A model generated the notes under the pieces. It worked only from the letters and a program-made list of their open reading frames with translations, made no database searches and was not told the DNA's origin. Shown here in pieces: positions 2,487 through 25,901 of a DNA stretch of 36,301 nt. Source of the stretch: a virus; IMG/VR virus record IMGVR_UViG_3300035070_002982, positions 1-36,301 of that record; one strand, given 5' to 3'. A program made the translations under genes and the position numbers. Every line of letters starts with the position of its first letter. Within the stretch, counting starts at the first letter, position 1.

Positions 2487-3034
2487 AATGATTTTATAAA
2501 ATTATCTAATAATTCAATCTCTTTTTTCAAATGGATACTTTCATTCATTTCTTTAACAAACTCTCCTGTTTCTTCTTTCATATTTGTTTTTACTCCATAT
2601 GTATCGTGAAACAATTTATGACATTTACAACACATAGCAATTAAGTGGTTATCTGGTTCATCTCCATATATACCAGTGTATACCTTATGGTGTAGTTGTA
2701 CATAATTTGTACTTTTACAACAAGAACATTGTTTTCCATGTTTTTTAAAATATCTGTTTTTTCTTTTTTCCCATAATTTGCTTATAATGTATGATTTGTA
2801 ACTTCTAACAGTTTTACGAATTTTTGGTTTTTTATTTTTCTTTTTTACATTTTTTCTTTTATCTTTCTCTTCTTTAGTCATCTTTCCTACTGTTCTTATA
2901 TGTTTTAACTTTCTTGACTTCTGAATATCATTCAACTCTTTGAACTTCTTTATCTCTTCTATTTGTATTTGTATGTTATCTAGTAAATTCATATGTTTGT
3001 TCTTTTGTTCAGCCACATCTCCCCCATACCCCAT
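2483..3034 (-). CDS. HNH endonuclease
   Basis: This is a 183-residue, very lysine-rich protein (long K/R run at about residues 55-80) with a C-terminal HNH module: CSCC, then QLHHKVY, then CCKCHKLFHD. The start is uncertain. ATG at 3034 gives 183 residues, but ATG at 2992 (MNLLDNIQIQ) removes an odd glycine-rich leader and may be correct. It lies directly downstream of the structured RNA at 3100-3290 and overlaps the second HNH gene by four bases, so the pair could be one mobile unit. Confidence 0.85.
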   Translation of the reverse strand: MGYGGDVAEQKNKHMNLLDNIQIQIEEIKKFKELNDIQKSRKLKHIRTVGKMTKEEKDKRKNVKKKNKKPKIRKTVRSYKSYIISKLWEKRKNRYFKKHGKQCSCCKSTNYVQLHHKVYTGIYGDEPDNHLIAMCCKCHKLFHDTYGVKTNMKEETGEFVKEMNESIHLKKEIELLDNFIKSL

Positions 3035-3099
3035 TGTATTTCAAATAGAGAATAGAAGAGAAAATAAAAAGCAAAAAGTTGGATTTGTTCTTCCGCCCC

Positions 3100-3311: not shown

Positions 3312-3587
3312 CTATTTTACTTTTAGTCTTCCGAAAAAGCACTTTCCAAAATGATCTGCTTTTTTACATACAGAAAAAAAGTAACGTAAATCATTAGTTG
3401 ATAAGTGTGCTACTTTCATAGCAACTGCCTTTGCTGTTATAGGTTTCCATTCAGTACCAACTCTTTCTTTATTTATTTCATCAAGTATATCTTTTATAAT
3501 CGCTTGTCGTTCGTTTGTTATTTTTGTTTCTTGTCGTTCTGGTAGAATATAACTAGCAAAGGAAAATAAGTCGCGGTCTTTTTCCAT
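3312..3587 (-). CDS. Hypothetical protein (91 aa), leaderless gene
   Basis: Small soluble protein with no recognised family. A helical middle (ERQAIIKDILDEINKERVG) is followed by KPITAKAVAMKVAHLSTNDL and a C-terminal FFSVCKKADHFGKCFFGRLK. The segment ITAKAVAMKVAHLS could be helix-turn-helix-like, so a DNA-binding or regulatory role is possible. Its ATG lies exactly six bases after a TATAAT box, so the mRNA probably starts at or next to the AUG. Confidence 0.7.
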   Translation of the reverse strand: MEKDRDLFSFASYILPERQETKITNERQAIIKDILDEINKERVGTEWKPITAKAVAMKVAHLSTNDLRYFFSVCKKADHFGKCFFGRLKVK

Positions 3588-3593
3588 ACTTTG

Positions 3594-3623
3594 ATTATAT
3601 CATGTACTATTTTTTAATTACAA
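3594..3623 (-). promoter_or_regulatory. Promoter giving a leaderless mRNA for 3312-3587
   Basis: Minus strand TTGTAA (3623-3618), 18 bases, TATAAT (3599-3594) in TGATATAAT context, then six bases and ATG (3587). The predicted start of transcription coincides with the start codon. Confidence 0.7.
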
Positions 3624-3654
3624 GCTAATAAAGTTATTAAACTGTGGATAAAGT

Positions 3655-3680
3655 AAAAAAACACACCATTTCTGATGTGT
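3655..3680 (-). terminator. Rho-independent terminator
   Basis: Minus strand ACACATCA-GAAA-TGGTGTGT, an eight-pair stem with a GAAA loop, then seven T. It ends the small-gene operon 3687-4441. Confidence 0.8.
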
Positions 3681-3686
3681 CTAATT

Positions 3687-3848
3687 TTATCCTTCAAACA
3701 AGGAAAGTTGTTTTCCGTCTTTCACTTCCTTATTGATGAATTGTTTTACATTTTCCGTAGGTACGGTAGTCATAGACCAGTGATTTACTGCGAGTACGAC
3801 TTGCTCTAATGTGTAGAGTTTTGATTTTTTTCTTTTTGTCTTTGACAT
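3687..3848 (-). CDS. Small basic hypothetical protein (53 aa)
   Basis: Starts MSKTKRKKSKLYTLEQVVLA and ends KDGKQLSLFEG. It has a lysine/arginine-rich N-terminus, then a helix. It lies ten bases after the stop of the 26-codon membrane gene and just before a terminator, so it is the last gene of that operon. No homology recognised; possibly nucleic-acid binding from charge alone. Confidence 0.65.
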   Translation of the reverse strand: MSKTKRKKSKLYTLEQVVLAVNHWSMTTVPTENVKQFINKEVKDGKQLSLFEG

Positions 3849-6941: not shown

Positions 6942-7484
6942 ATGAAAAAATGTATTGGTTGTGAAAACCTTATTACAAGCGACAAAAAGAAACTTTGTGT
7001 TTTCAAAAAGCAAAAGTTTTGTTCGAGGAAATGTGGATTAGTTTATAGGAATAAGGTTAATAATCCTATGAGTGACCCATTAGTTCTAGAAAAAATTAGT
7101 GGAAAAAATAGTAAGTTCTGGTTAGGTGAAAATGCTGGATATTTTTCAAAACATGATTGGATACGTGAACAGGGTATTAATCGAGAAAAGTGTTTACATT
7201 GTGGAATTAATGGATTCTTTTATAAAAACAATAGATGGAGTATAGAATTTTGTAATATATCTGGAGAATATAAAAGAATTATTGAAGACTGGATAACATT
7301 ATGTAGAAATTGTCATAGAAAAATGGACATAGGAAAAAGAGATCTTGTGGAAATAAAATGTAATGAATGTAATTGTTCGGTTTTAACAAAGTTTCCAAAT
7401 TATAAAAAATTTTGCGAAGGTTGTATACGAAAAAGACATAATCATAAGGTTAAATTAAGAAAAAGATATTTAAGGTTATTGTAA
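6942..7484 (+). CDS. HNH endonuclease with zinc-finger ends
   Basis: This is a 180-residue protein. The N-terminus has CIGCENL and FCSRKC, a four-cysteine zinc module. Residues about 50-70 (KNSKFWLGENAGYFSKHDWI) resemble DNA-contact segments of phage HNH proteins. The nuclease part is CLHCG (about 85-89), the SIEFCNISGEY region replacing the usual central HH, and LCRNCHRKMD (about 120-130). A second zinc pair (CNEC, then FCEGC) follows. Because the central HNH histidines are not clear (E/F in their place), activity is uncertain. It is flanked by hairpins and a terminator, like a self-contained mobile gene. Confidence 0.82.
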   Translation: MKKCIGCENLITSDKKKLCVFKKQKFCSRKCGLVYRNKVNNPMSDPLVLEKISGKNSKFWLGENAGYFSKHDWIREQGINREKCLHCGINGFFYKNNRWSIEFCNISGEYKRIIEDWITLCRNCHRKMDIGKRDLVEIKCNECNCSVLTKFPNYKKFCEGCIRKRHNHKVKLRKRYLRLL

Positions 7485-7613
7485 ACGAAAATACACCTCT
7501 ATTGGTGTATTTTTAATTGCAATTTCATGAGCTAGTTTGTTATACGTTAGTCTATTGTTTATAAGCCAATAGATACTAGCAAACGCGTCACCTGCTTTAT
7601 AAGGCAGGAATAC
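7476..7613 (-). other. Open frame without clear start codon, antisense to the HNH 3' end
   Basis: The minus strand is open for 46 codons (VFLPYKAGDAFASIYWLINN, then NRLTYNKLAHEIAIKN...). It lies right after a strong TTGTAT-18-TATAAT promoter (7647-7618). No ATG, GTG or TTG opens this frame, and the transcript would start around 7611. It may be a gene remnant or an antisense RNA that runs through the terminator hairpin. The segment contains the perfect inverted repeat CCTGC...GCAGG. Confidence 0.25.
7487..7516 (+). terminator. Rho-independent terminator of the HNH gene
   Basis: AAAATACACC-TCTATT-GGTGTATTTT, a 10-pair stem with a T tail, four bases after the stop. Confidence 0.85.
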
Positions 7614-7617
7614 AAGT

Positions 7618-7647
7618 ATTATACCATATTTTATACACTATATACAA
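7618..7647 (-). promoter_or_regulatory. Minus-strand promoter between the HNH gene and the tRNA-like RNA
   Basis: Minus strand TTGTAT (7647-7642), 18 bases, TATAAT (7623-7618) in TATGGTATAAT. It is as strong as the gene promoters, but no normal start codon follows. Confidence 0.5.
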
Positions 7648-7656
7648 GTATATTTA

Positions 7657-7684
7657 TTGTATTATTTTTTAATTGTTGTATAAT
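7657..7684 (+). promoter_or_regulatory. Promoter of the tRNA-like structured RNA
   Basis: TTGTAT (7657-7662), 16 bases, TATAAT (7679-7684). Transcription would begin near 7691, about 14 bases before the closing stem of the RNA. Confidence 0.6.
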
Positions 7685-7690
7685 AGTTTT

Positions 7691-7846
7691 AATTAAATAT
7701 CTATGGGGGAAGGGAGAGTCCTAAGGGCAATTACTTTGAGTTAATCATAGTAGAATGGCATTACATCCTAATGGGATTAGGAAGATACAGGTTCGAATCC
7801 TGTTGAATAACGAGGCGTCCACGCTACGCCTACAACCTTTCCCCAC
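7691..7846 (+). ncRNA. Structured RNA enclosing a tRNA-like cloverleaf
   Basis: A 9-pair outer stem joins GGGGGAAGG (7705-7713) to CCTTTCCCC (7836-7844). Inside are the hairpin GTCC-TAA-GGGC (7718-7728), a tRNA-like cloverleaf (7740-7811) and the hairpin AGGCGT/ACGCCT (7813-7831), giving a four-way junction. It has its own promoter and no coding frame. No matching RNA class was recognised. tmRNA is unlikely, because a full anticodon arm is present and the 3' end is not CCA. Confidence 0.65.
7740..7811 (+). tRNA. tRNA-like cloverleaf, anticodon position GGG (Pro-like), probably not a standard tRNA
   Basis: Acceptor TTAATCA/TGAATAA (one A-A mismatch), extended by G7740-C7811. D-stem GTAG/TTAC with a GG-containing loop. 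Perfect anticodon stem TCCTA/TAGGA with loop ATGGGAT. T-arm ACAGG-TTCGAAT-CCTGT. The anticodon would read proline codons. However, position 37 is A and not G, base 73 is C, the first pair is T-A and no CCA is encoded, all unlike bacterial tRNA-Pro. It may be a tRNA mimic inside the larger RNA or a degenerating tRNA. Confidence 0.5.
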
Positions 7847-7883
7847 AGGTATTTAATTTTTAACAGATAACCGCGAGTATCTT

Positions 7884-8116: not shown

Positions 8117-8584
8117 ATGCTTAAACGTACTGGTCTTAAACAAAAATTAACAAAACCACTCAAGCGTACACCACTTGCTAGAGTATCACCAAACAAGGTG
8201 AAAAAGAGTAAAGTAAGAACTAAATTACCTACTGTTAAATCAATGAGAAACAAGTGTGATGCACTACTGACACCTATAATAAAGTTGATGCACCCATATT
8301 GTATATTTACAGGTGAACCTACACAAGTTGCTCACCATGCAATTAAAAAGAGTACAAGTTCTTCATTACGTTATTATTTACCAAACTTGATACCTTTAAC
8401 TAATCAGGCACATTTAAGGCTTCATTCTGATGAGATATTATGGACTGGTAAATTAATACAAGTAAAAGGTTTAGAATGGTGGGAAGATTTACTTGAAAAA
8501 AAGGAAGTGTATACAAAATGCGATGTTCACCACTATATAGCAGAATATGATAGACTTAAAAACATATTAGATAATCTTAGTTAA
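8117..8584 (+). CDS. NinG/Rap-like HNH recombination nuclease
   Basis: This is a 155-residue protein. The basic N-terminus (LKRTGLKQKLTKPLKRTPLA) is followed by a helix with KCDALLTPIIKLMHPYC, then the nuclease region FTGEPTQVAHHAIKKS and NLIPLTNQAHLRLH. The HH pair and the distal AHxxLH follow the HNH pattern of lambda NinG/Rap, which processes recombination intermediates. The first-cysteine zinc module of NinG is incomplete here (only YCIF is visible). It fits functionally with the ERF and NinB-like genes, although on the other strand. Confidence 0.75.
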   Translation: MLKRTGLKQKLTKPLKRTPLARVSPNKVKKSKVRTKLPTVKSMRNKCDALLTPIIKLMHPYCIFTGEPTQVAHHAIKKSTSSSLRYYLPNLIPLTNQAHLRLHSDEILWTGKLIQVKGLEWWEDLLEKKEVYTKCDVHHYIAEYDRLKNILDNLS

Positions 8585-24447: not shown

Positions 24448-25901
24448 TTATGAAGTTGTAATGATTTTTACAGCTGCGTTATCTCGGTTTTCAACTACTC
24501 CAAACAAAATGTCTGCAGTAGTTAAAGTTGAAAGATAATCAGGGATGTAAGAACTTTGTACACGAACGTTATGTTTACCAACCATTCCTTTTCCGTAAGT
24601 CATTACAGGAAGTGAAGAAGTTGCATAGTGGATAGCGTCTTTGTGAGCCAAAACGTTTACTCGTCCTCCTAGTACTACTGGTACATAAGTTGAAGAGTAT
24701 ACAGGGATTCCATATAGGAATGCTGCAGGCATTTTCGCTGTTGGGTCGTTAACTGGTGAGTTAATAGCCAAAGAGAATTTGTCTAGGTTTTGTACTTGTT
24801 TCCAGAATGTGTTTGGGTGCATGAAGAATGCTACTTCATCCATATCAACACAGTTTCCTTCCAAAGTTGCGATAGCTGCTCGGATGTCTGAATCTGCAAT
24901 AGCGGTTGCTGATGAACCTACTGATTGTGAGAATCCAGAGAATAGAGTTGCTACTGCTGTTTCCAATACTGCTGCGATTGTGTAACCAGCGTTTTTAGCG
25001 TATCGTTCTTGGATAGCGTAAGACTGTTTAACGAATGCTGCTTCTCGGTCTTCAATAGCAAATGATACTTCTTTCCATGTATCAATAACAAGGTCAATAG
25101 AAGTTTCAGTTGGACTGTTACTTTTGTGTTTTCTCCAATTACTTGGAGTGTCGGACTATATCTTCAATCTTTCGATTGTCGGGTGCTGTGGGCTTACCGT
25201 AGTATCCCTAGTCTCTGAACCTTCCATAGTCTTCCCTATGGCTCGGCTGCTGATTGACCTTCAATTATGAATTAAAGGCGTTCCAGCAATTCTCCCGATT
25301 TTGTTTTATGAACATTTTTGTGGCACTTAGTGCATAATGTGATTCCATTACTTTCATCATAAAAGAAATCATCATTACCATTTAATTTTCCATAATCATA
25401 TGTACTAATTATAGCACATTAACTGTCCAATAGATACCCCTAACAGTGAAGAAAGGGTAACTGCAACTGCGTTAGTTTTAGTGTTAGCTGACATTTCTGT
25501 CAAATTAGGAGTGTGTAGAGTGTCTCCACCTGCTGCTAATTCTCCTGATCGGTCTGTAAAGAAGTCAGTAATGATAAGTTTACATTTGAAGAAGTCGTTG
25601 ATTCGGTCTCCCCAAATTTCCATGTTGTTACTACCTATTTCTAGGCGGGTAGGGCATTTCTGCTACCTCTGCGTCTTCATGTATACACGCAGGTCGGACT
25701 ATCGCATCACCTTAATGGCAATAAGGCGTTTTTTCATTTAGTCTCTGCAAGTCCTCAGTTTAATAAATAAACAAGGTTCTTGAGGGTTACCCCATCGGGC
25801 TTTCCCCATTAATTAGAAAAAATTTTACATCCCCGAAATTATAGGTAAGGGATCATTACAGCCAAGTCTGTACTTGTGAATGTATCTGTTGCGAATGCCA
25901 T
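24448..25901 (-). CDS. Major capsid protein, split gene: exons 25901-25848, 25620-25454, 25120-24448
   Basis: Joining the three exons (54 + 167 + 673 bases) gives an unbroken 297-residue protein. Exon 1 encodes MAFATDTFTSTDLAVMIP. Exon 2 encodes EIWGDRINDFFKCKLIITDF through TNAVAVT. The leucine codon is split CT|T, and exon 3 continues NSPTETSIDLVIDTWKEVSF. An N-terminal arm, the SFAIEDREAAFVKQSY region and the late YGIPVYSST...GRVNVLAHKDAI segment fit an HK97-fold capsid subunit, and the gene follows the scaffold gene. Without splicing, translation stops at codon 21 (TAA). Exon ends match P1 guide pairing and terminal G of both introns. The start at 25901 is the only ATG in frame. Confidence 0.92.
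25121..25453 (-). ncRNA. Group I self-splicing intron 2 of the capsid gene (333 nt)
   Basis: All four conserved core elements are present on the minus strand: P GAATTGCTGGAAC (25292-25280), Q AATCAGCAGCC (25255-25245), R GTTCAGAGACTA (25220-25209) and S AAGATATAGTCC (25164-25153), plus a CAATC-GAAA-GATTG hairpin (P8). P1: exon end TACCCT (25459-25454) pairs with the guide GGGGTA (25440-25435), leaving the required U-G at the splice site. The intron ends in G (25121). Sequence is closest to the phage IA class. It contains the 3' stub of an HNH gene. Confidence 0.92.
25272..25415 (-). pseudogene. HNH homing endonuclease remnant inside intron 2
   Basis: An open frame without a start codon (…STYDYGKLNGNDDFFYDESN, then GITLCTKCHKNVHKTKSGEL and a stop) matches the C-terminal half of an intron-type HNH enzyme: the second zinc pair CTKC and the final KNVHK. 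The N-terminal half with the first CxxC and the HH is missing, so it is a deletion relic. Its end overlaps the P element, as seen in intact intron-borne HNH genes. Confidence 0.8.
25621..25847 (-). ncRNA. Group I self-splicing intron 1 of the capsid gene (227 nt)
   Basis: R-like element TGCAGAGACTAAA (25749-25737) and S-like element GCGATAGTCC (25705-25696) form P7. P8 is CGCCTTA/TAAGGTG (25729-25709). P4-P6 is compact: GGGG/CCCT, GCCC/GGGT, CAAG-aac-CTTG. P9 has CTGCGT/ACGCAG, and a CCTA-GAAA-TAGG hairpin follows. P1: exon end ATCCCT (25853-25848) pairs with the guide GGGGAT (25834-25829), with U-G at the splice site. The last intron base is G (25621). It is short, has no ORF, and is clearly different in sequence from intron 2. 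Confidence 0.87.

Follow-up and report, generated by a model that had tools for sequence, protein, structure and literature searches.

A conserved phage RNA core with at least two circular permutations, usually joined to a tRNA or tRNA-like domain

The locus analyzed here is predicted to encode an independent RNA of about 170 nt that belongs to an undescribed family of phage RNAs. The existence of this family is well supported. Sequence comparison and covariation show that its core exists in two or more circular permutations and that it is usually joined to a tRNA or to a tRNA-like domain. The initial annotation described a cloverleaf wrapped in a stem, and it did not mention that this stem is part of a conserved core, common to many phages, which also includes the 3' hairpin.

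The window, which is the whole stretch of DNA that was analyzed, is a virus record of 36,301 bases. A discrete RNA lies at positions 7691 to 7858 (plus strand, as are all its parts), between the plus-strand ORF 6942-7484, which contains HNH-like cysteine and histidine motifs and had no match in Pfam, and the ORF 8117-8584. The RNA is closed by an outer stem (P1, 7691-7713 with 7836-7858) of 23 nt that is 87% complementary, with 22 of the 23 positions paired when G-U pairs are included, so the stem reported previously is real but much longer than the nine pairs given for it. Inside P1 there is a tRNA-like cloverleaf (7741-7811, with the D arm at 7750-7764, the anticodon arm at 7766-7782, and the T arm at 7787-7803), as well as a second hairpin at 7813-7831. 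The completeness of the cloverleaf was confirmed by an ARAGORN call of tRNA-Pro(GGG) at 7740-7812 and by a match to Rfam RF00005 at 7741-7811 (51.9 bits, with a cutoff of 29). A hairpin had been proposed on each side of the cloverleaf. The one on the 3' side is solid, whereas the one on the 5' side (7718-7728) has just four pairs, and a pairing with better support competes with it. The fold of the 170 nt is clearly more stable than that of shuffled sequences (z=-4.7), and the enclosing helix is the most significant one among 165 surveyed phage and MAG tRNAs (z=-4.4); the runner-up (z=-3.1) is on a doubtful tRNA call.

Between the two P1 strands, the elements of the core and of the cloverleaf are interleaved. 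Directly after the 5' strand comes the joiner J1/2, GAGAG (7714-7718), of which GAG is invariant in the alignments of relatives, followed by the P2 leader strand UCCUAA (7719-7724), a repeat of the anticodon stem's 5' strand with the capacity to pair with 7777-7782. The G-rich anticodon loop AUGGGAU (7771-7777) corresponds to AUGG, AGGG, UGGGGU, and AAUGGGU in relatives. The P2' strand UUAGGA (7777-7782), assigned by testing leaders against anticodon strands, overlaps the 3' strand of the anticodon stem. J3/4, UGAAUAACGA (7804-7813), is at the same time the 3' acceptor strand and the "C73" of the cloverleaf and is conserved in about 80 loci. It is followed by the P4 hairpin GGCGU-CCACGCU-ACGCC (7814-7830), the stem of which is invariant in sequence, and by J4/1, UACAA (7831-7835), which is invariant in the main family. 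A U run directly after P1 (7857-7861) may be the transcript end; together with P1 it gave no terminator call, the loop being long. Upstream there is a promoter-like site (7657-7684; TTGTAT at 7657-7662, 16 nt, TATAAT at 7679-7684). The part of the promoter proposed earlier that holds is the perfect TATAAT, which implies a transcription start around 7691, the first base of the stem; the -35 element is weak, and promoter-like sites in this AT-rich region occur at the density found in shuffled sequences. A direct repeat, ATACAAGTAT, is present at 7610-7619 and 7642-7651, upstream of the RNA, and is possibly an operator.

Searches with the window RNA by blastn and nhmmer found no homologue in INPHARED, in 47 terminase relatives, in the nearest neighbour contigs, or in other loci; a single match (in G011) was due to chance, and a first structure pattern and an anticodon-arm pattern gave chance matches only. 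A covariance model built from the single window sequence found two matches in the related phage contig L121, one with a tRNA-like interior (3532-3693) and one with another interior (2920-3085). Both copies lie downstream of a lysozyme-like gene and carry CGAGGCGUC-loop-ACGCCUACAAC just before the outer stem. They exposed the conserved core, CGAGGCGU-loop-ACGCCUACAA, which was searched in IMG/VR as the pattern CGAGGCGT-N3..22-ACGCCTACAA. Among the matches listed, the pattern was present in more than 120 contigs, which is a lower bound. Although loops of 3 to 22 nt were allowed, 61 of the 106 listed core matches have a loop of 6 or 7 nt. The dinucleotide AA precedes 95 of the 109 distinct listed matches, and 80 of these 95 are outside ORFs (of 90 amino acids or more), whereas all 14 matches that lack the AA are inside ORFs and are probably coding chance matches. 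A third long-stem RNA (GTTGTAGGTGGTGAAGG / CCTTCACCCTCTACAAC) that lacks the core motif is present at 3190-3345 of L121, between the two core elements. Two other phage contigs, L305 and L260, have up to four model matches each, which suggests arrays of core RNAs.

Independent evidence that the window RNA belongs with these elements comes from a model in which it had no part. When four tRNA-bearing members with the topology of the window RNA (class I) were aligned without the window, the resulting model matched the window at 7702-7848 with 77.3 bits (E=3.8e-22). In an alignment of these four members and the window, with the structure drawn on one of them (L239), the covariation score was 0.692, compared to 0.246 for shuffles and at most 0.139 when the partners were slid; 93.4% of the pairing cells could pair, compared to 72.4% in shuffles and about 40% with slid partners. 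The slid control is somewhat favourable because the sequences are few and one of them supplied the structure, but given the size of the difference this is unimportant for P1. In this alignment, both partners have changed in 26 of 38 pairs. Outer-stem covariation had been named beforehand as the deciding test, and all 12 counted P1 pairs, which are the inner ones of the stem, change on both sides among these five divergent sequences, while P4 never varies. The window RNA thus shows both features by which the core family was defined, P1 covariation and the invariant P4 motif. A decaying tRNA that happens to be flanked by an inverted repeat or a terminator would fit with the many weak repeats in the AT-rich surroundings, but it is refuted by the fold score, the covariation, and the independent model match, and we consider it extremely improbable.

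The core consists of the helices P1 (the outer stem), P2, P3, and the invariant P4, with the conserved joiners GAG, GAAYAACGA, and UACAA. In class I, which includes the window RNA, the outer stem follows directly after ACGCCUACAA and encloses everything. Class II has a short hairpin closing the same junction, followed by GAGAG and by a strand that pairs with the stretch directly 3' of the tRNA end. Class I is a circular permutation of class II, and in the permuted form the core starts directly after the 3' end of the tRNA. In class II, thirteen different P2 pairs fit their own partners only (0 of 20,000 permutations), and RNAalifold independently recovered P2 and P3 with compensatory changes, with P4 invariant. 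Many class II cores are located about 30 nt downstream of a tRNA that has an insertion in the anticodon loop. ARAGORN accepts these tRNAs only with an insertion of 30 to 100 nt, and the neighbouring tRNAs are normal. The tRNAs attached to permuted forms belong to many isotypes, and loop motifs common to the insertions were noted by eye only.

In each of the five tRNA-bearing class I members, five to six pairs can form between the leader downstream of GAG and the 3' side of the anticodon stem; in the window the pairing is UCCUAA:UUAGGA, which uses a strand that is also needed by the cloverleaf. The sum for the five own pairings is better than for all 119 other assignments and was reached by only 2 of 20,000 shuffles. 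The register was chosen after the sequences had been seen, so this test is strong but not blind, and most of the P2 pairings from an automatic search were not significant when taken singly; significance was reached only jointly, in a fixed register. Because the leader and the cloverleaf share a strand, two mutually exclusive folds are possible. In the window form, the leader strand could displace the 5' half of the anticodon stem, and cloverleaf and core would then be alternative folds.

Short core matches were also found in isolated phages: Tetrasphaera phage TJE1 (class II), Erwinia jumbo phages, Pseudomonas phage D6, Arthrobacter phage Kumotta, and Enterobacteria phage CUS-3. The last three have shorter matches and count as tentative members. 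The core-like motif of CUS-3 (L325, near 1501) lies in the unannotated stretch that separates Q from the holin gene S. In the fold of the element of Erwinia phage ChrisDB, a tRNA-like domain sits inside P2. The core pattern is rare in bacterial genomes (0 of 294 and 3 of 379, in two phyla). In small bacterial genomes it is found around position 1500 (L334 and L335) or 110 (L333). The elements in L334 and L335 stand alone, have no tRNA, and follow similar acidic C-terminal coding sequences; by eye, each is preceded by a promoter-like site and followed by a terminator-like hairpin. In Stenotrophomonas phage Jojan60 (L331), an 83-nt stretch (1580-1662) matches both ends of the tmRNA model with 61.8 bits. 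It is possibly a mini-tmRNA with little beyond the tRNA-like domain, and it adjoins a core-like motif. A RAGATH-1 hammerhead ribozyme is present at L251 3342-3412, about 1 kb from a core motif.

The tRNA-like domain of the window RNA is probably not an ordinary tRNA-Pro. As described previously, it has T1-A72, C73, and A37 and lacks CCA, and the suspicion that it is no working tRNA-Pro is borne out by these bases and by the odd loops of its homologues. In bacteria the proline identity set is C1-G72, A73, and G37 (PMC9976931), none of which is present here, whereas all seven other Pro tRNAs that were compared have C1-G72 and A73. The anticodon loops of four close homologues are 4, 4, 6, and 7 nt long, so the 7-nt loop is not kept; the "C73" belongs to the invariant motif of the core; and CCC is used only 4 times in 10,379 codons. 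These observations count against an ordinary phage tRNA that host enzymes would mature from a precursor with a closing stem of the RNase III type, even though the Rfam tRNA score is good and a related phage has an array of five tRNAs after its lysozyme-like gene. We regard this as unlikely, and the same holds for the earlier suggestion of a processed precursor, at least for an ordinary one. It is hardly credible that the domain is a tRNA with a proline anticodon that is charged with histidine through G-1:C73 and recodes CCY codons. Among 165 tRNAs, G-1:C73 is found elsewhere only in tRNA-His, but the CCT columns of the phage are mostly Pro in 35 of 46 cases and mostly His in none. The conserved AACGAGGCGU motif dictates this C, so the resemblance to tRNA-His is probably a coincidence, and on both grounds this idea was dropped.

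No family covering the core element was found by an Rfam search of the window and member loci; Rfam 15 also has no such family, and no paper in the open literature that we searched for the core sequence describes this RNA. A close parallel is given by the HDV-like theta ribozymes, small structured RNAs that metagenomic phages carry at the 3' ends of their tRNAs (PMC10879173). Their placement and a possible role in tRNA processing are similar, but the conserved sequence and helix order of the core are distinct, and the tRNAs here frequently contain an insertion in the anticodon loop and can lie inside the core. The structural mark of this class is a nested double pseudoknot at the tRNA 3' end; the HDV-like models of Rfam, from which a theta-specific model may be absent, did not match the core elements. 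Inspection led us to reject an HDV-like fold for the 3' flank, as the sole complement of GAGGCGU is 7 nt away. GOLLD and ROOL are also phage RNAs of unknown function that lie near tRNA islands, and GOLLD sometimes has tRNAs in a linker region (PMC12286853). Both are far larger than the core elements, many GOLLD RNAs being longer than 800 nt (PMC12286853), and their Rfam families had no match in the window or in 20 member loci. Group I introns in tRNA genes (RF00028) share the anticodon-loop insertion and a loosely similar AGAGACU stretch. In our elements no P3-P8 or P7 was recognised and the core lies outside the insertion, and a search of five member loci with RF00028 found nothing at E≤1, for which reason this identity was dropped. 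The same model does detect an intron elsewhere in the window (25132-25386, minus strand, 82.8 bits), in the structural gene region between the ORFs 24448-24966 and 25405-25623. Apart from the theta and HDV-like ribozymes, which were compared through the models in Rfam, each known family tested differs from the core in at least one feature, and we therefore rate the family as new.

With regard to function, we tentatively favour the possibility that the core is a structured, perhaps catalytic or processing, module that would act in cis on the attached tRNA. This is because conserved joiners surround variable helices, the core is permuted, and it is placed at tRNA ends, as in small ribozymes such as the theta ribozymes. 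It might cleave itself next to P2' or remove the anticodon-loop insertion by splicing. The corresponding site of the window RNA would fall in the anticodon loop AUGGG, just before UUAGGA. The Rfam ribozyme and group I intron models found no match to the element, which argues against catalysis, and the invariant P4 could equally be a protein-binding site. Moreover, a tRNA may not be needed for the function, since some members have none, among them the stand-alone copies of the small bacterial genomes. A more far-reaching proposal would be a new class of natural ribozymes, in at least two circular permutations, that cleave or splice attached phage tRNAs, with the insertions as introns, the core downstream of the 3' exon, and the window form as a switchable version acting in the anticodon loop. 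In this full form we consider it rather doubtful.

The main rival of the cis-acting module, and nearly as likely, is a tRNA mimic or scaffold RNA that binds proteins in the manner of Y RNAs. The outer stem and P4 would hold a partner, and the tRNA-like domain would compete for tRNA-binding enzymes or anticodon nucleases. Y RNAs and YrlA (RF02553) are likewise non-coding, with a tRNA-like domain closed by a stem, and are reported near RNA repair genes; YrlA has been suggested as a possible anticodon nuclease inhibitor (PMC7790460). The odd anticodon loops of 4 to 7 nt and the non-Pro identity bases would suit such a role. On the other hand, the conserved core is a different one, RF02553 found nothing at E≤10 in the window record, and a Ro/TROVE gene (PF05731) was present in 0 of 15 member records or genomes; a partner could be host-encoded. 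The permuted forms, which sit on insertion-bearing tRNAs of many isotypes, look more like a processing element.

It is rare to find an RNA family that is conserved in sequence and structure across diverse phages and yet is outside Rfam. The fusion to tRNAs, the aberrant anticodon arms, and the circular permutation make direct and cheap tests possible. The family also indicates that phage tRNA annotations, such as tRNA-Pseudo, tRNA-OTHER, or an unusual "tRNA-Pro," can conceal other RNAs. If the core is catalytic, it would represent a new ribozyme or intron class, and if it is a mimic, it would reveal a new way for phages to counter tRNA-based defence or tRNA enzymes.
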